Assembly (NCBI GenBank): GCA_017856115.1
Contig: JAFMFM010000004.1
Span: 1 to 64,000 of the forward strand
DNA: 64,000 nucleotides
DNA from: Actinomycetota bacterium
Lineage (GTDB): Bacteria > Actinomycetota > Acidimicrobiia > Acidimicrobiales > Ilumatobacteraceae
Direction of reading: 5' to 3'
The position numbers were made by a program, and so were the translations under genes. This document shows, one piece after another, positions 45,870 through 55,955 of this stretch. The notes beneath the pieces are model-generated. The model ran no database searches. It was given only the letters and a program-made list of their open reading frames with translations, and had not been told where the DNA came from. How positions within the stretch are numbered: position 1 is the stretch's first letter; every line of letters begins with the position of its first letter.

Positions 45870-48800
45870 CTAGCGAAAATCGCGGGCCGCCATACGAATC
45901 GGCACGCGCAACTCGGTGAACCGTTCGCCGATCACGTTCACCACACCTTCTGCGTACTGCACACGACCGTGCACGAGCAGTGCGCTCGCTCGACGCAACA
46001 CCTCGGCATGACGAACCCAGCACCCGCGTGAACACAACACGTTGATGAGCCCCGTTTCGTCCTCCAGGCTGAAGAACGTGGTGCCCTTGGCGGTCATGGG
46101 GCGTTGTCGATGCGTCACCACGCCGGCTACCAGTACTCGTGTTCCCGATTCGTGCACTTCGCCGGCAGGATTGCGTGCCAGATCATCGAGTTCGGTTGCG
46201 GTGAGCACGCCCAGTTCGCGCAACGAATCGCGGAGGAACACCGTCGGATGACCGTCGGGCGAAACTCCCGTCGCCCACAAATCCGCCACCGACTCCTCCA
46301 CCGGTTGCATGCCGGGCAGGTGCGGCGTGGACACCGTGGCAGTACCTGCAAGTCGATCTGCGGACGACTCCACGACGGCACCCGCATTCCACAACGCCGT
46401 TCGTCGTGACACATCGAACGACTCACCGAACACGCCGGCGGTGGCGAGCGCCTCGAGTTGCTTCACCGAAACACCCGGTACGCGACGCACGAGATCCTCG
46501 ATGTCGACGAACGGCCGTGCCGCCTCGATACGGGCGGCAAGTTCGATGCCGATACCGCGCACCGAGCCGATGCCGAGACGAACGGCGAGACCCCCGGTGG
46601 AACGCGGATCGGTCTCCAACCATGCACCGGCGCGTGATGCATTGATATCGGGAGTGCGCACCACCACCCCGTGACGACGCGCATCCTGCACCAACGTGTG
46701 GGGCGACCAAAATCCCATCGGTTGCGAGTTGATCAACGCCGCACAAAAAATCGCCGGCTCGTGCAGTTTGATCCACGCCGAGGAATACACGAGATAGGCG
46801 AAGCTCACCGAATGACTCTCGGGAAAGCCGTAGTTGGCGAAGGCCGCCATCTTGTCGTAGATCTCATCGGCGATGGCACCGGTGATGCCGCGTTGCGCCA
46901 TTCCCGCATACAAACGATCGCGTAGTCGGGTCATTCGGGCACGCGAACGTTTCGAGCCCATTGCTTGTCGCAACTCATCGGCCTGCGTGGGAGTGAAACC
47001 CGCAACGTCGATCGCCATTTGCATGAGTTGCTCCTGGAACAACGGCACGCCGAGTGTTTTCCCGAGACTGTTCTCCAGTAGCGGGTGCAGGTATGTGACG
47101 GGCTCGAGTCCGTTTCGGCGACGGATGTACGGGTGCACCGAACCACCCTGGATGGGTCCCGGTCGAATGAGTGCAACCTCCACCACGAGGTCGTAGAACC
47201 GGCGCGGCTTCAGCCGCGGCAACGTGGACATTTGCGCGCGGGACTCCACCTGGAACACCCCCACGCTGTCGGCGCGGCACAACATCGCGTACACCTCGTC
47301 TTCTTGCGGAATCTCCGCCAGGTCGATGTGCTTGCCGCGAAACTCGGCGATGTAGTCGGTGGCCCGGTGCAGCGCCGACAACATGCCGAGCCCCAGGAGG
47401 TCGAACTTCACCAGATCGATCGCCGCGCAGTCGTCCTTGTCCCACTGCAACACGCTGCGCCCCGGCATGGTGGCCCACTCCACCGGACACACCTCGCTGA
47501 CGGGACGATCGCAAATCACCATGCCACCGGAGTGGATGCCGAGGTGACGCGGTGCATCCTGTACTCGCCCGGCCAATTCCACCACCAAATCCGGAACCGT
47601 TACTTCACGCTGACCCTTGACGGAGCTCCATGAGTCGAACCGCCGGCTGAATGCATCCTGTTCGGCACCCGAGTAGCCGAGCGCGCGCGCCATGTCGCGT
47701 ACGGCGGAACGGGCACGGTACGTGATGACGTTGGCCACCTGTGCCGCATGCGTCCGCCCGTAGCGCTCGTACACGTACTGGATGACTTCCTCGCGGCGAT
47801 CACTTTCGATGTCGAGATCGATGTCCGGCGGACCATCACGTTCGGTGGAAAGGAACCGCTCGAACAACAACCCGAGCGATACCGCGTCGGCCTTGGTGAT
47901 GCCGAGCGAAAAACACACCGCGCTGTTGGCTGCGCTACCCCGACCCTGGCACAGAATGTCGTTGCGTTCGCAGAACTGCACGATGTCCCACACCACGAGG
48001 AAGTAGCCGGCGAACCCCAACCGGTCGATCACCTCCAACTCGTGGTCGATGGTGCGCCACGCACGCGAACGCAACGACAGGTCCTCGTGCGTACCCAGCG
48101 GACGCTCGCCGTAGCGACGCCTGCCTCCCGCTTCGGCGAGTTGTCGCAAAAACCGAATCTCGCTCAGCCCACCAGGACACGGGTACGGCGGCAACTTCGG
48201 CGCAATCAGCGACAGATCGAACGCCACATGATGCGCGATGTCGGCGGCGCGCGACACCACACCCGGGTACCGCGCGAATCGTCGCTCCTGTTCCGCCGCG
48301 CTACGCAAACACGCGGTGGCGGCCGGCGGAAGCTGCGGGTCGAGCTCATCCAAACTGCAACGATGGCGCACGGCGGCAAGCGCACATGCCACCACATGGT
48401 CGCCCGGCACGGCGTACGACACGTCGTTGGTGGCCACCGACTCCACCCCGCATGCCGCCGCAATGCCCACCAGCGCATCGTTGCGCCACGCATCCAGCGG
48501 GTCGCCGTGATTCCACACCTCCACCAACACGCGATCGCGACCGAATGCATCGATCAACAACTCGAGTGATCGTCGTGCGGCACGCGGACCATCGGCGTGC
48601 AACGCCCGCGCGAGTGGACCATCGGTGGCGCCGGTGAGCACGAAGCAGCGATGGCGCACACGCTCGGCCAGCGACGGCACGTCGAACACCGGCTGCGACT
48701 TCGTCCCGCGCATTTGACCATCGGTGAGCGCCTGCGACAATGCGACGTACCCCGTCGGGCCATCGGCGATGAACACCAGGTCGCCATGGGGTTGAACGGT

Positions 48801-49043
48801 CGTGCCGTGTGCATCCCCGGAACGGCACGACACCTCGGCACCGAACACGGTGCGTATTCCCACCTCGCGTGCGGCCTGGGCGAACCGCACCACGCCGTAC
48901 AAGCCGTGGCGATCCGTGAGCGCCAGTGCGCTCAACCCGAGTTCGTGCGCCACCTCCACGAGGCGTTCGGGTGATGAGGCCCCGTGCAGGAACGAAAACT
49001 GCGAACGACAGTGCAATTCGGCATACTCATCGCACAGCGACAC
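45870..49043 (-). CDS. dnaE2: Error-prone DNA polymerase DnaE2
   Basis: A 1057-residue C-family polymerase. The PHP domain covers about 1-280 (ELHCRSQFSFLHGASSPERLV, LTDRHGLYG). The catalytic palm has GRGSAANSAVCFSLGIT and PDIDLDIESDRREEV with its aspartates. A helix-hairpin-helix and an OB fold (VLVAGVVTHRQRPMTAKGT) follow. It performs translesion and mutagenic synthesis with ImuA' and ImuB. The start is GTG 49043. A perfect LexA box and a -10 abut it, so it has its own SOS promoter inside the cassette. Confidence 0.96.
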   Translation of the reverse strand: MSLCDEYAELHCRSQFSFLHGASSPERLVEVAHELGLSALALTDRHGLYGVVRFAQAAREVGIRTVFGAEVSCRSGDAHGTTVQPHGDLVFIADGPTGYVALSQALTDGQMRGTKSQPVFDVPSLAERVRHRCFVLTGATDGPLARALHADGPRAARRSLELLIDAFGRDRVLVEVWNHGDPLDAWRNDALVGIAAACGVESVATNDVSYAVPGDHVVACALAAVRHRCSLDELDPQLPPAATACLRSAAEQERRFARYPGVVSRAADIAHHVAFDLSLIAPKLPPYPCPGGLSEIRFLRQLAEAGGRRRYGERPLGTHEDLSLRSRAWRTIDHELEVIDRLGFAGYFLVVWDIVQFCERNDILCQGRGSAANSAVCFSLGITKADAVSLGLLFERFLSTERDGPPDIDLDIESDRREEVIQYVYERYGRTHAAQVANVITYRARSAVRDMARALGYSGAEQDAFSRRFDSWSSVKGQREVTVPDLVVELAGRVQDAPRHLGIHSGGMVICDRPVSEVCPVEWATMPGRSVLQWDKDDCAAIDLVKFDLLGLGMLSALHRATDYIAEFRGKHIDLAEIPQEDEVYAMLCRADSVGVFQVESRAQMSTLPRLKPRRFYDLVVEVALIRPGPIQGGSVHPYIRRRNGLEPVTYLHPLLENSLGKTLGVPLFQEQLMQMAIDVAGFTPTQADELRQAMGSKRSRARMTRLRDRLYAGMAQRGITGAIADEIYDKMAAFANYGFPESHSVSFAYLVYSSAWIKLHEPAIFCAALINSQPMGFWSPHTLVQDARRHGVVVRTPDINASRAGAWLETDPRSTGGLAVRLGIGSVRGIGIELAARIEAARPFVDIEDLVRRVPGVSVKQLEALATAGVFGESFDVSRRTALWNAGAVVESSADRLAGTATVSTPHLPGMQPVEESVADLWATGVSPDGHPTVFLRDSLRELGVLTATELDDLARNPAGEVHESGTRVLVAGVVTHRQRPMTAKGTTFFSLEDETGLINVLCSRGCWVRHAEVLRRASALLVHGRVQYAEGVVNVIGERFTELRVPIRMAARDFR

Positions 49044-49658
49044 TCACTCACGATAGCGAACATATGTTCGCAAGGCGACCGCAAGGCCGCCCCGAACCCC
49101 CGCGTCGGCAACGTCGTACGCCTCCTCGGGAGTGAACCAGCGCGCATACGGACTCTCGCCCTCGCCGGGTCGCGGATCCTCGTCACCTGCGAACAACACG
49201 TACCGCACGTCGAAGTGCCGATGACCCCGCGGACCCGGGTGCACATCCAGATGAATGAGGAGTGGACCATCCGGCGGATGCGTCACCGACATACCCAACT
49301 CCTCCCGTGATTCACGTACCGCGGCATCGGCGGGATGTTCGCCGTCATCGATGTGGCCACCCGGCTGCAACCACAGGCCCAAGCGCTTGTGCAGGTGCAA
49401 CACCACACCTCGTCGTCCCACCACCAGCGCCGACGCAGTGACATGCCGAATGTCCGCCTGCTCGCTGAAAGGTGCCTCGAGCCCTGGCACCACCGACAAG
49501 AACTCGTCGATGGATCCTCGTTCACGCTCGTCGACCGGTGTTGCAGCACGAAAGTGTGCACACAATGCGGCAACGACGTGCGCATCGTGCGGCGACATGG
49601 TGGGCACGCAGACACCGTAGTGCTCGTGTGCGTCGCGTACGTCGTGTTCGTCAGGCAT
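49044..49658 (-). CDS. NUDIX hydrolase in the mutasome cassette
   Basis: A 204-residue protein with a complete Nudix box: GGHIDDGEHPADAAVRESRE followed by ELGM, the GX5EX7REUXEEXGU pattern. The substrate is not visible; nucleotide-pool cleaning or nucleotide-sugar hydrolysis are both possible. The start is ATG 49658, eight bases inside the imuB end; ATG 49598 is an alternative. The stop codon directly precedes dnaE2. Its last codons overlap the dnaE2 LexA box, so box and protein tail share the same bases. Confidence 0.88.
   Translation of the reverse strand: MPDEHDVRDAHEHYGVCVPTMSPHDAHVVAALCAHFRAATPVDERERGSIDEFLSVVPGLEAPFSEQADIRHVTASALVVGRRGVVLHLHKRLGLWLQPGGHIDDGEHPADAAVRESREELGMSVTHPPDGPLLIHLDVHPGPRGHRHFDVRYVLFAGDEDPRPGEGESPYARWFTPEEAYDVADAGVRGGLAVALRTYVRYRE
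49050..49071 (-). promoter_or_regulatory. LexA (SOS) box and -10 of dnaE2
   Basis: GCGAACATATGTTCGC (49056-49071) is a perfect palindrome matching the Gram-positive LexA consensus CGAAC-N4-GTTCG. It abuts the -10 hexamer TATCGT (49050-49055), followed by six bases and GTG 49043. Bound LexA would cover the -10 region. Confidence 0.85.
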
Positions 49659-51189
49659 ACCATGCCGCACGTCGCCACACGTGGTGTTCGAGCACGGCGA
49701 TCATCGCACGCGTTTGCTCCGTGCCGCGTTCGCGCAACAACAGTTGCAAACGTACGGCCCGACGCGCCCGCTGCGCATCCCACCAGCGCTCCTCGACCGG
49801 CCACGGACCCGCCCACGCCAACACGTCGTAGGTGGCCGAACCCATTCGCACGACGGCCGGCTCGTCGCTCATCGCATGTCGGGAGGTCACGCCGACGGAT
49901 CGACCATCGGTGCCGTGCACGTCGATGTGCGCGTCCGGCGCGGCATCGAACACCAACGATGGCGCCGGTGACGGCAACGAGCCGCGCCACGTCACCGGCA
50001 TCGCCACCTCGCGCACAACGCGACGCTCGAGATCCACCGCGTCACTACGCACGAACTCGAACCACCGCGCCGGATCACGGCCACCACGCCACGTCGGAAT
50101 GGTGACCGACTCGGCCCCGTGCATATCTACGACACGACGAATCGCGCGTTGCGCATGGCGGTCGCCGTCGCGTTCCCCACCCCACAGCGAGGCCTGACGT
50201 CCGACATCGACCACCATCTGCTCGGGCGACAACCGCACACCCACCACCCCGCTGGTGGGTGCATCGTGTTGAACCCATGCATCGAGTTGCCAGCGAACGC
50301 TCTCGACGATTGCGCCCGCGCTCCAACCATCGGCGCGGTACCACATGCGTTCGCTTCGCTCACCGTGGTCGGACTCCAACGACACGTGCAGCCGAACCAC
50401 CGACAAACCGTGTGCCACCAGATGTCCCACCACGGCGGTGGCAAGTTGATCGACGATTGCCAGCACCGCGTCGCGTGATTCGACGGGCGAATCGAACTGG
50501 TGCGAGCACACCCGATCGGGTGGCGGTGCAACCGTGAGCGGTGGGTGACGGTCCATTCCGTGCGCCAGCCGGAACAAATCGCGACCGAATGCGCCGAGTC
50601 GGGCGATGAGGTCGGCTTCGCTCAGCGTTGCAACATCGCCGAATCGGTACAACCCGAGTCGCTGCAGGAGCGACACCACCTCTCGATACGACGCAACGTC
50701 GTCGGCACCCGGAACCCCCGCCCCCACCGCACCGATGACCTCCACGCACTGCACCAATGCATGCACCGGCGTGTCGGAGAGAACGTTGCGTGATGCACCG
50801 GGAGCAACGACGTGCGGTGTGCCCGTGTGCAAGGAGTGCTGTGCGGCGATTGCCGCGGCAAGGCGACCGTCGGCGATACCGATGCCGAAGCGAGGTCGTG
50901 CCGTACCCGTGCCATGCACCGCGCCGGTGTCATGCGCCGCGCCTAGCTGTCGTTGAATTGCCGCACGCACCAATGCCGCCAACGCATCGTCCCCACCGGC
51001 ATGACGCGACGGCCCTCGCGTGGCAAACACGATGATGCCCGGTGCAGTGACCTCAACCAACGGCACATGGGCCACCACCGCACGAACGACGGGTTCGAAG
51101 GCACTGCGCGCACTGCACCCCAACGCATCGGCATACGCCGACCAGTGCGGGAACTGGACGACTACGACACGCGTTGGCTGGTCACGCAT
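49651..51189 (-). CDS. imuB: ImuB, Y-family polymerase-like mutasome hub
   Basis: A 512-residue DinB/Y-family homologue. It starts MRDQPTRVVVVQFPHWSAYA; the first catalytic aspartate of active Y-family enzymes is replaced within VVQFPHW, the known ImuB pattern of an inactive polymerase. The thumb and little-finger regions follow (FGDVATLSEADLIARLGAFG at about 215). A C-terminal extension after residue 300 probably carries the beta-clamp-binding and partner-binding functions. The start is ATG 51189, overlapping imuA' by 28 bases. It bridges DnaE2 to the sliding clamp. Confidence 0.9.
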   Translation of the reverse strand: MRDQPTRVVVVQFPHWSAYADALGCSARSAFEPVVRAVVAHVPLVEVTAPGIIVFATRGPSRHAGGDDALAALVRAAIQRQLGAAHDTGAVHGTGTARPRFGIGIADGRLAAAIAAQHSLHTGTPHVVAPGASRNVLSDTPVHALVQCVEVIGAVGAGVPGADDVASYREVVSLLQRLGLYRFGDVATLSEADLIARLGAFGRDLFRLAHGMDRHPPLTVAPPPDRVCSHQFDSPVESRDAVLAIVDQLATAVVGHLVAHGLSVVRLHVSLESDHGERSERMWYRADGWSAGAIVESVRWQLDAWVQHDAPTSGVVGVRLSPEQMVVDVGRQASLWGGERDGDRHAQRAIRRVVDMHGAESVTIPTWRGGRDPARWFEFVRSDAVDLERRVVREVAMPVTWRGSLPSPAPSLVFDAAPDAHIDVHGTDGRSVGVTSRHAMSDEPAVVRMGSATYDVLAWAGPWPVEERWWDAQRARRAVRLQLLLRERGTEQTRAMIAVLEHHVWRRAAWYA

Positions 51190-51818
51190 GACAAATCGAG
51201 CGTTGCCTCGCGCGGCACCGGGCAGCGCCGACCGCCCACACGCAGCTGCACGAGCCGCTGCGTGATGTGCGAGCCACCACGCTCGATACCCGCCCACGAA
51301 ACGGTGTTTGCCTGCACGTCGAGATCGGCGACGAAGGCGCGCGATGCATTGCCGCTCGTGCGCGACGTCGGCAACGCACCAGGAACGTCCACCACCAACA
51401 ACACCGACTGACGCGCAACGATGCGGGACTGCAACCGTCGCGCGTCGTGCCCGGTGAGTGACGCCGGCGGCGCAACGATGAGCACGTCGAACCCCTCCAC
51501 GAGTGCCGCCACCGTGGTCACCCACTCACGACTTGCCGACGGGGGTTGCGCAAGAATGAGGCGCTCGATCGCCACACCTGCCTCCACCGCCGCACCCACA
51601 CCGAGGTGCGGCACACCGACCACCGCCAACCATGAGCCGACCCGAGTTGCTGCCGCCGAGACCGCCAGTGCCGCACTCAGCGCAGCATCGCCCGTGCACG
51701 CCACCGTGCGACCACGCACCACCCCACCATCGGTAAACAGCGACAACAACGATGAGGCAACAGGCAACGGGGCACGCACGGCTGGCATGCCGAGACGAGA
51801 ACGTAGGTCAGTAGCCAT
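51162..51818 (-). CDS. imuA': ImuA'-like RecA-fold mutasome protein
   Basis: A 218-residue protein with a RecA-like fold but a degenerate P-loop (VACTGDAALSAALAV in place of GxxxxGKT), as in mycobacterial ImuA'. VDVLIV/LLVVDVP-type strands and a basic C-terminus fit the family. The start is ATG 51818. LexA box, -10 and start codon are contiguous upstream. It is the first gene of the imuA'-imuB-nudix-dnaE2 cassette. Confidence 0.8.
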   Translation of the reverse strand: MATDLRSRLGMPAVRAPLPVASSLLSLFTDGGVVRGRTVACTGDAALSAALAVSAAATRVGSWLAVVGVPHLGVGAAVEAGVAIERLILAQPPSASREWVTTVAALVEGFDVLIVAPPASLTGHDARRLQSRIVARQSVLLVVDVPGALPTSRTSGNASRAFVADLDVQANTVSWAGIERGGSHITQRLVQLRVGGRRCPVPREATLDLSCVTSQRVS

Positions 51819-51824
51819 CCCCAC

Positions 51825-51846
51825 ACCATAGCGAACAGGTGTTCGC
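51825..51846 (-). promoter_or_regulatory. LexA (SOS) box and -10 of imuA'
   Basis: GCGAACACCTGTTCGC (mRNA strand, 51831-51846) matches CGAAC-N4-GTTCG exactly. It abuts -10 TATGGT (51825-51830), then six bases and ATG 51818. The geometry is identical to the dnaE2 promoter. Confidence 0.88.
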
Positions 51847-51881: not shown

Positions 51882-53471
51882 TTACGCGAGGTGCAACAAG
51901 CCGTAAACGATCGACTCTTCGAGGGCCCGCCACGATGCCTCGATGATGTTGGACGACACACCGATGGTGGTCCAGGTGCGATCGCCGTCCGTCGCGTCGA
52001 TCAACACACGAGTGACGGCGCCCGTCGCCGATGACGAGTCCAGGATACGCACCTTGTAGTCGGTGAGATGCACACGGGACAACTGCGGGTACTTCTGTGC
52101 CAAGCACGCGCGCAACGCGGTGTCGATGGCGTTCACCGGACCGTTTCCTTCCGCGGTGTGCACTTCACGATGGTCGCCGATCCACACCTTCACCGTGGCT
52201 TCGGTGGTGAACGAGCCGCTGGTGGATTCGTCGGTGATGACGCGCATCGACTCCACGTTGAAGAAGTTCTGCTCCCAACCCGTGGCGCGACGCATCAACA
52301 ACTCGAGCGATGCATCGGCCGCCTCGAAGTGGTAGCCCTCGAATTCCAACCGCTTCAGCTCGTCGAGAATCGAGTTGATCACGGCACCGTCGGCATCGAG
52401 TCCGAGCTCCTGCGCCTTCATCGAGATGGTGGCCCGTCCCGCCATCTCCGACACGAGAAATCGCGTGCCGTTCCCCACCAGATCCGGTGATACGTGCTCG
52501 TAGGCATCCTTGGCGCGTGCAATCGCCGATACGTGCAAGCCTGCCTTGTGCGCGAACGCCGACGTGCCGACGTACGGTGCCTGCGGGTTCAACGGGCGGT
52601 TCAACACCTCGGCAACGTGGTTGCTCACCGATGTGAGGTGCTCCAGGCGCCCCGCCGGCAGACAATCCAAGCCCATCTTCAGCTGAAGGTTCGGGATGAT
52701 GGTGGTGAGGTTGGTGTTGCCCGTGCGCTCGCCCAAGCCGTTGAGCGTTCCCTGCACATGACGTGCACCCGCGCGAACCGCTGCGAGTGAATTGGCGACG
52801 GCGCAACCGGTGTCGTCGTGGCAGTGGATACCGATGATGGCGTCATTCCCCACGTGTCGCGCCACATCGGCGACGATCGATTCGATCTCGTGCGGCAACG
52901 ATCCACCGTTGGTGTCGCACAACACCAAGTGCGAAGCGCCATTCACCACCGCTGCTTCGAGCACGCGCAGGGAGAACTCCGGGTTGTTCTTGTAGCCGTC
53001 GAAGAAGTGCTCGAGATCCACCAACACCAATCGATCATGACTGCCGAGGTATTTCACCGAGTCGGCGACCATCGCCACACCCTCGTCGAGCGTGGTTTGA
53101 AGCGCGGTTTCCACGTGGTAGTCCCAGGCCTTTGCCACGATGCATACCCCGGTCGTTTGCGCGTTGATCAGGTTGCGCAAGGTCGCGTCGTCATCGACCT
53201 TGCCCGACGGACGCCGCGTACTACCGAACGCCACCAGCGTCGACGTCGCGAGCGTCAGTTCACGCTTGGCGCGCGCGAAGAACTCCTCGTCCTTGGGGTT
53301 TGCGCCCGGCCAGCCACCCTCGATGTAGTGCACACCGAGCAAATCCAGCTGCTCGGCAATGCGCAACTTGTCGTTGACGCTCGCCGACACGCCCTCCACT
53401 TGCATGCCGTCACGCAGTGTGGTGTCGAACACCTCCACCGTGTTGGCGGGCAGCGCGAGACGAGCCGGCAT
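51882..53471 (-). CDS. cimA: Citramalate synthase
   Basis: A 529-residue HMGL-like enzyme with LeuA-type C-terminal allosteric domain. VEVFDTTLRDGMQVEGVS (about 10-27) opens the TIM barrel; GIHCHDDTGCAVANSLAAV and VQGTLNGLGERTGNTNL supply metal and substrate residues. The domain order and the YIEGGWPGANPKD segment are those of CimA (pyruvate plus acetyl-CoA to citramalate) and not of 2-isopropylmalate synthase. The start is ATG 53471, two bases after ilvE. It supports isoleucine synthesis without threonine. Confidence 0.92.
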   Translation of the reverse strand: MPARLALPANTVEVFDTTLRDGMQVEGVSASVNDKLRIAEQLDLLGVHYIEGGWPGANPKDEEFFARAKRELTLATSTLVAFGSTRRPSGKVDDDATLRNLINAQTTGVCIVAKAWDYHVETALQTTLDEGVAMVADSVKYLGSHDRLVLVDLEHFFDGYKNNPEFSLRVLEAAVVNGASHLVLCDTNGGSLPHEIESIVADVARHVGNDAIIGIHCHDDTGCAVANSLAAVRAGARHVQGTLNGLGERTGNTNLTTIIPNLQLKMGLDCLPAGRLEHLTSVSNHVAEVLNRPLNPQAPYVGTSAFAHKAGLHVSAIARAKDAYEHVSPDLVGNGTRFLVSEMAGRATISMKAQELGLDADGAVINSILDELKRLEFEGYHFEAADASLELLMRRATGWEQNFFNVESMRVITDESTSGSFTTEATVKVWIGDHREVHTAEGNGPVNAIDTALRACLAQKYPQLSRVHLTDYKVRILDSSSATGAVTRVLIDATDGDRTWTTIGVSSNIIEASWRALEESIVYGLLHLA

Positions 53472-53473
53472 GA

Positions 53474-54391
53474 CTACTTGGCGAGCTCGCACCAATGCGA
53501 GTACTTCTTCTCCTGGCCTCGAACCGCGCGGGCGTACATTGCGGCGATCGCACGGGTCTTGGGACCCGGGCACGGAATCTCGCGCTCATCCACCGAACGC
53601 ACCGAGCCAACCTCGGCGGCGGTACCGCAGGCGAACACTTCTTCGGCGACGTACAGGTCGCTGCGTGCGATGTTGTCGACACGAATCTCGTAGCCGAGAT
53701 CCCGCGCAATGGTCATAACGCTGTTCTGCGTGATGCCTTCGAGCGCACCCGCCGATAGTGGCGGCGTCAGGATCACGTCGTTGCGCACCACGAAGATGTT
53801 CTCGCCCGTGCACTCGGCCACCAGCCCGTTCGGCGCAAGCATGATTGCCTCGTCGTAGCCGGCCTTCAAGGCCTCCACCTTCGCCAACGATGAGTTCACG
53901 TAATTGCCCACCGTCTTTGCGGCGGGTGGCATCGTGTTGTGGTCGTGGCGAGTCCAGGACGAGATCTTCATCCGCACGCCCTTTTCCACCGCGTCGTCGC
54001 CGAGGTACGCACCCCACGGCCAGCACGCGATGGCAACGTCCACCTTGCACGGCATGGTGTTGAGACCCATCTCGCCGTAGCCGTAGTACGCGAGCGGTCG
54101 CACGTAGCAGGACGGCAGCCCGGTCGATGCAACGGTGTCCTTGGTCGCCTGCACCAGCTCCTCCACCGAGTACGGCATCGGCATTCCCATGATCTTGGCG
54201 CTGTTGTGCAGGCGAACGATGTGGTCGGTCAATCGGAAGATCGCGGGGCCCTTGTCGGTTTCATAGGCGCGAATGCCCTCGAACACACCGGTTCCGTAGT
54301 GCAGGGTGTGGGTGAGCACGTGCACGTTTGCATCGGCCCAGTCCACGAGCGATCCGTTCATCCAGATCTTTGGTGTCGTCGTGATTGGCAT
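53474..54391 (-). CDS. ilvE: Branched-chain amino acid aminotransferase
   Basis: A 305-residue fold-type IV PLP enzyme. It has HYGTGVFEGIRAYET (about 31-45), the PLP lysine in PPAAKTVGNYVNSSLAK (near 160), and ECTGENIFVVRND. It transaminates leucine, isoleucine and valine. The start is ATG 54391 with a real Shine-Dalgarno (AAGGGG, spacing 7), unlike the many leaderless genes here, which fits an internal operon position after leuB. Confidence 0.94.
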   Translation of the reverse strand: MPITTTPKIWMNGSLVDWADANVHVLTHTLHYGTGVFEGIRAYETDKGPAIFRLTDHIVRLHNSAKIMGMPMPYSVEELVQATKDTVASTGLPSCYVRPLAYYGYGEMGLNTMPCKVDVAIACWPWGAYLGDDAVEKGVRMKISSWTRHDHNTMPPAAKTVGNYVNSSLAKVEALKAGYDEAIMLAPNGLVAECTGENIFVVRNDVILTPPLSAGALEGITQNSVMTIARDLGYEIRVDNIARSDLYVAEEVFACGTAAEVGSVRSVDEREIPCPGPKTRAIAAMYARAVRGQEKKYSHWCELAK

Positions 54392-54421
54392 CGTGACCCC
54401 TTTTCGTGCGCCGTATTGACG

Positions 54422-55435
54422 CTATCCGTGGAGTCTTCGACAGATCTCGTCGCCGACCGCCACCGTGGTACCACTCGTTGGCTGCGCGCATGCGTCGCGA
54501 ATCGCACCTGCGGCTCGCGACTCGCCGAGATGATCCAACATGAGCGCGGCCGACAAGATCGCCGCCACCGGATTGGCCACGCCCTTGCCCGCGATGTCGG
54601 GAGCCGAGCCGTGTACCGGCTCGAACAACGACGGACCGGTGCGGGCCGGATTCAAGTTGGCCGACGACGCCAGGCCGATTCCGCCACTGACGGCGCCACC
54701 AAGATCGGTGAGGATGTCACCGAACAAGTTGTCGGTCACGATCACGTCGTATCGGTGGGGATCCTGCACGAAGTAAATACACGCTGCGTCGACATGGTTG
54801 TATGCCGTGCCAACACCGGGGAACTGCGCCGCAACCGACTCGAACGCGCGCTGCCAGAGGTCCCCCGCGAAGGTCAGCACGTTGGTTTTGTGTACGAGGG
54901 TCACGTGCTTGCGCTCACGCGACGAGGCAAGCTCGAACGCGTACCGAATGCAGCGCTCGACCCCGAAACGAGTGTTCACGCTTCCCTGCGTGGCAACTTC
55001 ATGCTCGGTACCGTGCCGCAACACGCCACCTTCCCCCACGTACGAGCCCTCGGTGTTCTCGCGAATCACCACGAAGTCGTGCGGTGCGGAGTGACCCGGA
55101 CCCGTACCAACGAAGGGTCGCTGGTTGATGTATAGATCGAGACTGAAACGCAACTTGAGGAGGAGCCCGCGCTCGATCACGCCGGGTGGCACCCCCGGTG
55201 TGCCCACCGCGCCGAGCAAGATCGCGTCGAATCCGCGCAACGCCTCGAGCGTGTCGTCGCTCAGTATCTCTCCGTCGCGCAAGAAGCGTGCACCACCGAG
55301 ATCGAAGAACGTGGTGTCGAGTTCCACTCCGCTCGCGCGCACCACCTTGAGTGCTTCGGCGGTGACTTCGGGACCGATCCCATCGCCGCCGATCACCGCA
55401 ACACGATGCACGGAGCGAGTCGAGGCCGCATTCAC
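54422..55435 (-). CDS. leuB: 3-isopropylmalate dehydrogenase
   Basis: A 337-residue NAD-dependent beta-decarboxylating dehydrogenase. [13 protein letters not shown] (about 13-25), the substrate-binding [18 protein letters not shown], and [28 protein letters not shown] are family hallmarks. With CimA present it may also act on methylmalate. The start is GTG 55435, seven bases after a TAGCCT -10; the ORF extends to 55552 across greA's promoter. It leads the leuB-ilvE-cimA operon and is divergent from greA. Confidence 0.94.
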
Positions 55436-55442
55436 CCCAATC

Positions 55443-55466
55443 AGGCTAGGGAGGTATGGGTATCCT
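55443..55466. promoter_or_regulatory. Divergent leaderless -10 hexamers of leuB and greA
   Basis: The minus-strand TAGCCT (55443-55448) precedes leuB GTG 55435 by seven bases. The plus-strand TATCCT (55461-55466) precedes greA ATG 55473 by six bases. The start codons are 37 bases apart. Confidence 0.55.
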
Positions 55467-55472
55467 GACGAT

Positions 55473-55955
55473 ATGCCGACACACCGTTTATCGCGTGTTG
55501 CCCTCGAACGCTTGCAGGCCGAACACCTCGACCTCACGACTCGCGGTCGCATCGAGGTTGCCGCGCGAATCGGGCGGGCCCGTGAGATGGGTGATCTGAA
55601 GGAAAACGGTGACTACCACGCCGCAAAGGACGAACAGGGCCATATGGAGGGTCGCATTCGTCAGATCGAAGCCATCCTGGAGAACCACGAGATCGTCGAG
55701 GTCCTCGACAACGGCAGGATCGATCACGGCTGCATCGTCACCATCCTCTACGAAGGTGACGCCCCGTCACAGGCAGAGAAGTACCTCATCGGCCACATGG
55801 AGGAGCGCCCGGACGACCCGAGCATCAGCGTGATGAGCGCCACGTCGCCCCTGGGTGCGGCGCTACTCGGCGCAAAGGAAGGTGACTCCGTCACCTACGA
55901 CGCTCCCAACGGCTCGCTCACCGTTACTGTCGTACGCGTGGAGGCATGCCCTTAA
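55473..55955 (+). CDS. greA: GreA/GreB family transcription elongation factor
   Basis: A 160-residue protein with the N-terminal coiled coil ([32 protein letters not shown]). The acidic tip residues Asp and Glu in GDLKENGDY act in RNA polymerase to promote transcript cleavage. The C-terminal FKBP-like domain ends [19 protein letters not shown]. The start is ATG 55473. One base separates its stop from the following hydrolase gene. Confidence 0.94.

Follow-up and report, generated by a model that had tools for sequence, protein, structure and literature searches.

A complete NUDIX hydrolase gene lies between imuB and dnaE2 in the mutasome cassette studied here, and this NUDIX-bearing cassette is real, conserved and, as far as our searches reach, undescribed. 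In the window, by which we mean the whole stretch of 64,000 nucleotides that was analysed, the open reading frames run head to tail on the minus strand in the order imuA', imuB, NUDIX and dnaE2 (Table 1). The reading that we prefer, with a probability of about 0.6, is that a functional NUDIX pyrophosphohydrolase gene has joined a LexA-controlled mutasome cassette. As parts of this reading we infer co-transcription with the cassette, a history of capture and hydrolysis of a nucleotide pyrophosphate.

Table 1. Positions in the window of the cassette genes and their sequence features.
Feature	Position	Strand	Basis
imuA' (RecA-like mutasome accessory factor)	51162..51818	-	NF058630, 91.1 bits (cut-off 65)
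imuB (Y-family polymerase-like mutasome subunit)	49651..51189	-	ten-homologue profile and position between imuA' and dnaE2
NUDIX hydrolase gene	49044..49613, start uncertain	-	PF00293, 57.3 bits (cut-off 21.1); start judged from relatives
Nudix box, GX5EX7RE-S-X-EE-X-G-M	49290..49358	-	alignment of 18 homologues
dnaE2 (error-prone DNA polymerase)	45870..49043	-	NF004225, 1370 bits (cut-off 939)
LexA box CGAACAGGTGTTCG, palindromic, 13 nt before imuA' ATG	51832..51845	.	exact match
LexA box CGAACATATGTTCG in last NUDIX codons, 13 nt before dnaE2 GTG	49057..49070	.	exact match
Putative -10 TATGGT, 6 nt before imuA' ATG	51825..51830	-	predicted from aligned upstream regions
Putative -10 TATCGT in NUDIX codons, 6 nt before dnaE2 GTG	49050..49055	-	predicted from aligned upstream regions

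All three genes of an ImuA'-ImuB-DnaE2 mutasome cassette are present together in the window. ImuB had no Pfam match and no dedicated model matched it; a profile of 10 ImuB homologues matched Y-family polymerases (DNA polymerase IV, E 6.9e-15). The sequence-only reading had placed a full NUDIX gene between imuB and dnaE2, with no gap before the latter. Both points are confirmed by gene order, strand, the PF00293 match and the abutment of the two genes, the NUDIX stop codon (49046-49044) being followed directly by the GTG start of dnaE2 (49043). In two further loci (L061 and L062, from genomes G153 and G091) NUDIX and dnaE2 occupy one reading frame with a single stop codon between them (1230 aa open frame). 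The cassette of the window is preceded, at 51882-55552, by genes for an HMGL-like/LeuA-type synthase, a class IV aminotransferase and an isopropylmalate-type dehydrogenase, and the same neighbours are found at L078 and L083. The latter locus comes from a record titled Bifidobacterium breve (CAMAWR010000001.1) that carries an Ilumatobacteraceae-type cassette, its proteins 70-87% identical to those of the window, and looks mislabelled.

An 8-base overlap between imuB and the NUDIX gene, which followed from a start at 49658, had also been proposed and is probably wrong. The upstream start alternatives are 49658 and 49670. The reading frame of four relatives (L080-L083) closes immediately before the residue that corresponds to window position 49613, and of the seven other genus members with a match, five (G360, G348, G371, G301 and G315) have one TGA within the upstream-extended NUDIX match. 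Because close relatives carry stop codons there, the overlap is doubtful; the likelier starts are 49607 (GTG) and 49598 (ATG), either of which would leave about 40-50 nt between imuB and NUDIX.

LexA boxes were sought as exact matches to CGAACN4GTTCG, with the reversed pattern as control. The window holds two such sites. In the 1.67 Mb genome as a whole there are six, and the control pattern occurs once. The two sites in the window lie before imuA' and dnaE2 at an identical spacing from the start codon, and the second falls within the eight codons that close the NUDIX gene (R T Y V R Y R E); as had been noticed from the sequence, the end of this gene doubles as the dnaE2 LexA box. Additionally, the genome carries lexA with its own exact box upstream, and one genomic box precedes a RecA-like reading frame (identified by eye). 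Two further exact boxes (L098, G000:C7:47513, and L099, G000:C35:3603) have no clear SOS target. Across the family, 43 of the 47 loci with a readable stretch have an exact box before imuA', and two more have one with a single mismatch; for dnaE2 the figure is 43 of 44 with an exact box. Judged by its sequence, with exact boxes before imuA' and dnaE2 and a lexA gene bearing its own, the ImuA'-ImuB-DnaE2 cassette is predicted to be under LexA control.

The regions upstream of imuA' and dnaE2 share a layout in which the LexA box is immediately followed by a TANNNT-like motif, which we take to be a -10 element, and then, a few nucleotides on, by the start codon. This closeness of the start codons to the putative -10 suggests leaderless mRNAs for both genes. 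The dnaE2 box and -10 of genus g1 fall within the final eight codons of NUDIX; elsewhere, in several genera, NUDIX stops before the dnaE2 LexA box. Under our preferred reading, DNA damage would lead to cleavage of LexA, and a single transcript starting at the imuA' promoter would then cover imuA', imuB and NUDIX; dnaE2 would have a LexA-box promoter to itself, located in genus g1 within those NUDIX codons. A consensus scan of the imuB-NUDIX interval found no minus-strand promoter-like or terminator-like site there, which is weak evidence. Co-induction of NUDIX with the mutasome genes is likely on these predictions. The proposal that NUDIX belongs to the SOS unit stands in part: the gene lies downstream of the predicted LexA-box promoter of imuA'-imuB, but the arrangement in larger genomes would leave it outside the SOS transcript.

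A one-strain oddity was rejected by a census of 121 genomes of the Ilumatobacteraceae, a family of aquatic actinobacteria; of these genomes, 104 had a match to NUDIX, 109 to imuB and 113 to dnaE2. NUDIX lies downstream of imuB on the same strand and contig in 96 of the 100 genomes with both matches, and on a contig other than that of imuB in the remaining four (G354, G376, G299 and G308). Measured between alignment edges rather than gene ends, the imuB-NUDIX distance in the 96 is within 200 bp in 52, 213-437 bp in three and about 0.9-6.5 kb in 41. In 43 genomes the order imuB-NUDIX-dnaE2 is compact, with no more than 200 bp between imuB and NUDIX and no more than 350 bp from there to dnaE2; thus the conservation that the sequence-only reading proposed to look for in related genomes is found. 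Nine loci from named records (L077-L085) are all compact, although in L085 dnaE2 falls beyond the sequence end. In genus g8, NUDIX had no match in any of the eight genomes, though imuB was matched in all eight and dnaE2 in six. In two loci of genus g4 (L064:8955-9950 and L066:8049-9065, in G051 and G019) the NUDIX protein carries a fused GNAT acetyltransferase domain.

In a class-wide sample of 296 genomes, close NUDIX matches grouped in the family of the window, with some in other families. The 17 orthologue stretches from outside the family (L037-L053) had no ImuA', ImuB or DnaE2 match. There the NUDIX relative is fused to a HAD (L038:7629-8957, G193) or inositol-monophosphatase domain (L044:9837-11147, G281), or stands beside zinc-ribbon and histidine-phosphatase genes or folB (L042, L039 and L050). 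A link to phosphatases recurs among these relatives. Inference of a substrate from such neighbours was dropped, as the contexts (folB, histidine phosphatase, HAD, inositol phosphatase) disagree.

In nine split loci an opposite-strand OmpR-type response regulator gene (PF00486, PF00072) stands between imuB and NUDIX, and the same placement is seen in four further split loci (G302, G303, G319 and G340). The regulator also follows imuB in all five g8 loci read (L056, L075, L076, L142 and L143). No such gene turned up in the compact loci examined or in six loci of other genera with a short imuB-NUDIX distance (G327, G300, G307, G318, G298 and G297). No exact LexA box lies within 350 nt of NUDIX in the nine split loci, two of which have a site with one mismatch; a separate LexA promoter for NUDIX in split loci (0/9 with an exact box) was rejected. 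In a tree of DnaE2 and ImuB, some deep nodes of which are weak, the compact loci fall into two clades apart from each other, one of them genus g3, which groups with split genomes (support 95), and the second made up of the other compact loci. The NUDIX tree, built on a short alignment with weak support, repeats the two compact groups and does not set the NUDIX proteins of the family apart from other families as one clade. Because compact forms occur in two separate clades of the mutasome tree, it looks as if the SOS unit took in NUDIX more than once, for the most part in streamlined genomes. Our preferred reading would thus have NUDIX separated from imuB upstream of it, in the family ancestor, by a divergent response-regulator gene; loss of that regulator in several lineages, mostly streamlined, would then have brought NUDIX into the SOS transcript.

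This history also bears on the main rival explanation, in which NUDIX is a passenger, a general metabolic hydrolase that stands beside imuB by descent and was pulled into the SOS transcript by streamlining, with no role in mutagenesis. Compact genomes have a median size of 1.85 Mb, against 3.9 Mb in the set compared with them (52 and 41 genomes), a comparison of species that are not independent and for which kinship is uncorrected. Since the compact order goes with small genome size, it could have arisen by passive loss of spacer DNA without selection. The divergent regulator and missing exact box in larger genomes, the unrelated settings of orthologues in other families and the retention of imuB without NUDIX in genus g8 all fit a passenger. 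The missing box, the outside settings and genus g8 also count against our preferred reading, as does the link with genome size. Against it, regulator loss left NUDIX adjoining imuB several times, including in some larger genomes (G327, 4.3 Mb; G300, 3.8 Mb; G307, 2.8 Mb), and the gene stayed downstream of imuB in nearly every genome of the census that has both. We regard a passenger as a serious contender whose chances fall somewhat short of even.

The NUDIX protein itself appears to be a maintained enzyme. Its catalytic RE..EE box and PF00293 domain place it in the Nudix hydrolase superfamily; R100, E101, E104, E105 and G107 are invariant in 18 homologues, and the residue after RE in the box is Ser instead of a hydrophobic one. 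Between close relatives dN/dS is 0.06-0.13 for NUDIX, 0.08-0.20 for ImuB and 0.05-0.08 for DnaE2, values that indicate purifying selection on the NUDIX protein. A decaying gene was rejected on these values and the intact catalytic residues. The solved structures closest to the AlphaFold2 model (mean pLDDT 93.3), by Foldseek and VIA-align, are NUDIX enzymes, nucleotide hydrolases among them. The best Foldseek match is the Ap6A hydrolase Ndx1 of T. thermophilus (TM 0.88 by target length, rmsd 1.3, 30% identity). VIA-align Z scores are 19.1 for an uncharacterised Clostridium NUDIX protein, 17.7 for Ndx1, 16.8 for an Aquifex Ap4A hydrolase and about 16 for M. smegmatis MutT1. Assignment of a substrate from structure was dropped, as the scores of several substrate classes differ by no more than a few Z units. 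The preferred reading would have the enzyme hydrolyse, during mutasome activity, a nucleotide pyrophosphate of either the damaged (d)NTP or the ApnA type; this is its least certain step.

The NUDIX protein reaches no NCBIfam equivalog cut-off. ADP-ribose pyrophosphatases are marked by a proline 15-16 residues after the Nudix box; in an alignment of 18 homologues this proline is absent, the protein having D123 and V124 there. Diadenosine polyphosphate hydrolases carry a tyrosine 16-18 residues after the box. Although the fold is close to Ndx1 and the Ap4A hydrolases, V, H and P stand at the places of this ApnA tyrosine. The lack of either signature weighs against the preferred reading, and the missing tyrosine tells against alarmone control, in which the enzyme would degrade diadenosine polyphosphates (Ap4A, Ap6A) that build up under stress and its SOS induction would end or tune the stress signal; the structural match to Ndx1 speaks for such control, yet fold similarity does not fix the substrate, and we consider this the least probable of the readings weighed here.

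Cleansing of damaged dNTPs, as first proposed for this gene, would be a MutT-like removal of oxidised dNTPs before error-prone DnaE2 could insert them, which would shape the spectrum of SOS mutations. The idea is reasonable because translesion polymerases in mycobacteria have been proposed to incorporate 8-oxoguanine if the MutT system is not active (PMC10159617). In its favour are the likely co-regulation with the mutasome and the place of MutT1 among the nearest solved folds. The genome contains mutM, a mutY match below cut-off and six NUDIX proteins, none of which reaches the MutT cut-off; below cut-off, one resembles CoA pyrophosphatases, one hydrolases of ADP compounds and one the NtrR regulator. 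With mutM present and no NUDIX protein at the MutT cut-off, the MutT role in this genome therefore looks vacant, which allows a cleansing role, though only as a possibility. Against cleansing, the protein scores 25.4 bits with the MutT 8-oxo-dGTP diphosphatase model (TIGR00586), below the curated cut-off of 97.9; its likeness to Ap4A/Ap6A hydrolases and uncharacterised NUDIX proteins is equal or greater, and genus g8 has the mutasome without NUDIX. Cleansing is possible, though we hold it rather unlikely.

As known so far, SOS mutagenesis cassettes consist of a polymerase and its helper proteins. That a nucleotide-type hydrolase has become linked to them repeatedly, and throughout a family, suggests a possible connection of mutagenic synthesis with either the upkeep of the nucleotide pool or a nucleotide signal. 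In its strongest form, NUDIX would be a true fourth component of the mutasome programme, induced with ImuA'-ImuB-DnaE2, altering the nucleotide pool just as error-prone synthesis takes place, so as to tune SOS mutations, and recruited independently in several streamlined lineages; we think this quite unlikely. Genus g8, without NUDIX, and the compact and split genera offer natural comparisons with and without the gene.

Among characterised enzymes, Ndx1 of T. thermophilus is the closest in structure (30-31% identity over the NUDIX domain) but lacks the N-terminal helical part present in our model (residues 1-55). Mycobacterial MutT1, of which 8-oxo-dGTP structures exist, has the NUDIX fold in common at about 20% identity. 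MutT1 carries a histidine-phosphatase domain, and in two other families the cassette-NUDIX orthologue lies near a histidine-phosphatase gene; unlike MutT1, the cassette protein has no phosphatase domain that a domain search could find.

We found no description of a NUDIX gene in an imu cassette in open-licence papers, and the word 'nudix' is absent from the main text of PMC12926913, PMC6511836, PMC3919608, PMC3765255 and PMC10421592. Other mutasome neighbourhoods, described in PMC3765255 and PMC6511836, include lexA, SRAP, standalone ImuB-C, YolD, Ku/ligase and photolyase genes, and they likewise attach extra genes to mutagenic polymerase operons. The mycobacterial 'split' cassette of imuA'-imuB and dnaE2, as described in PMC10421592, resembles the present one in its ImuA', ImuB and DnaE2 proteins, its LexA control and its two-gene imuA'-imuB unit. 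Unlike in that cassette, here NUDIX follows imuB and dnaE2 lies directly downstream.
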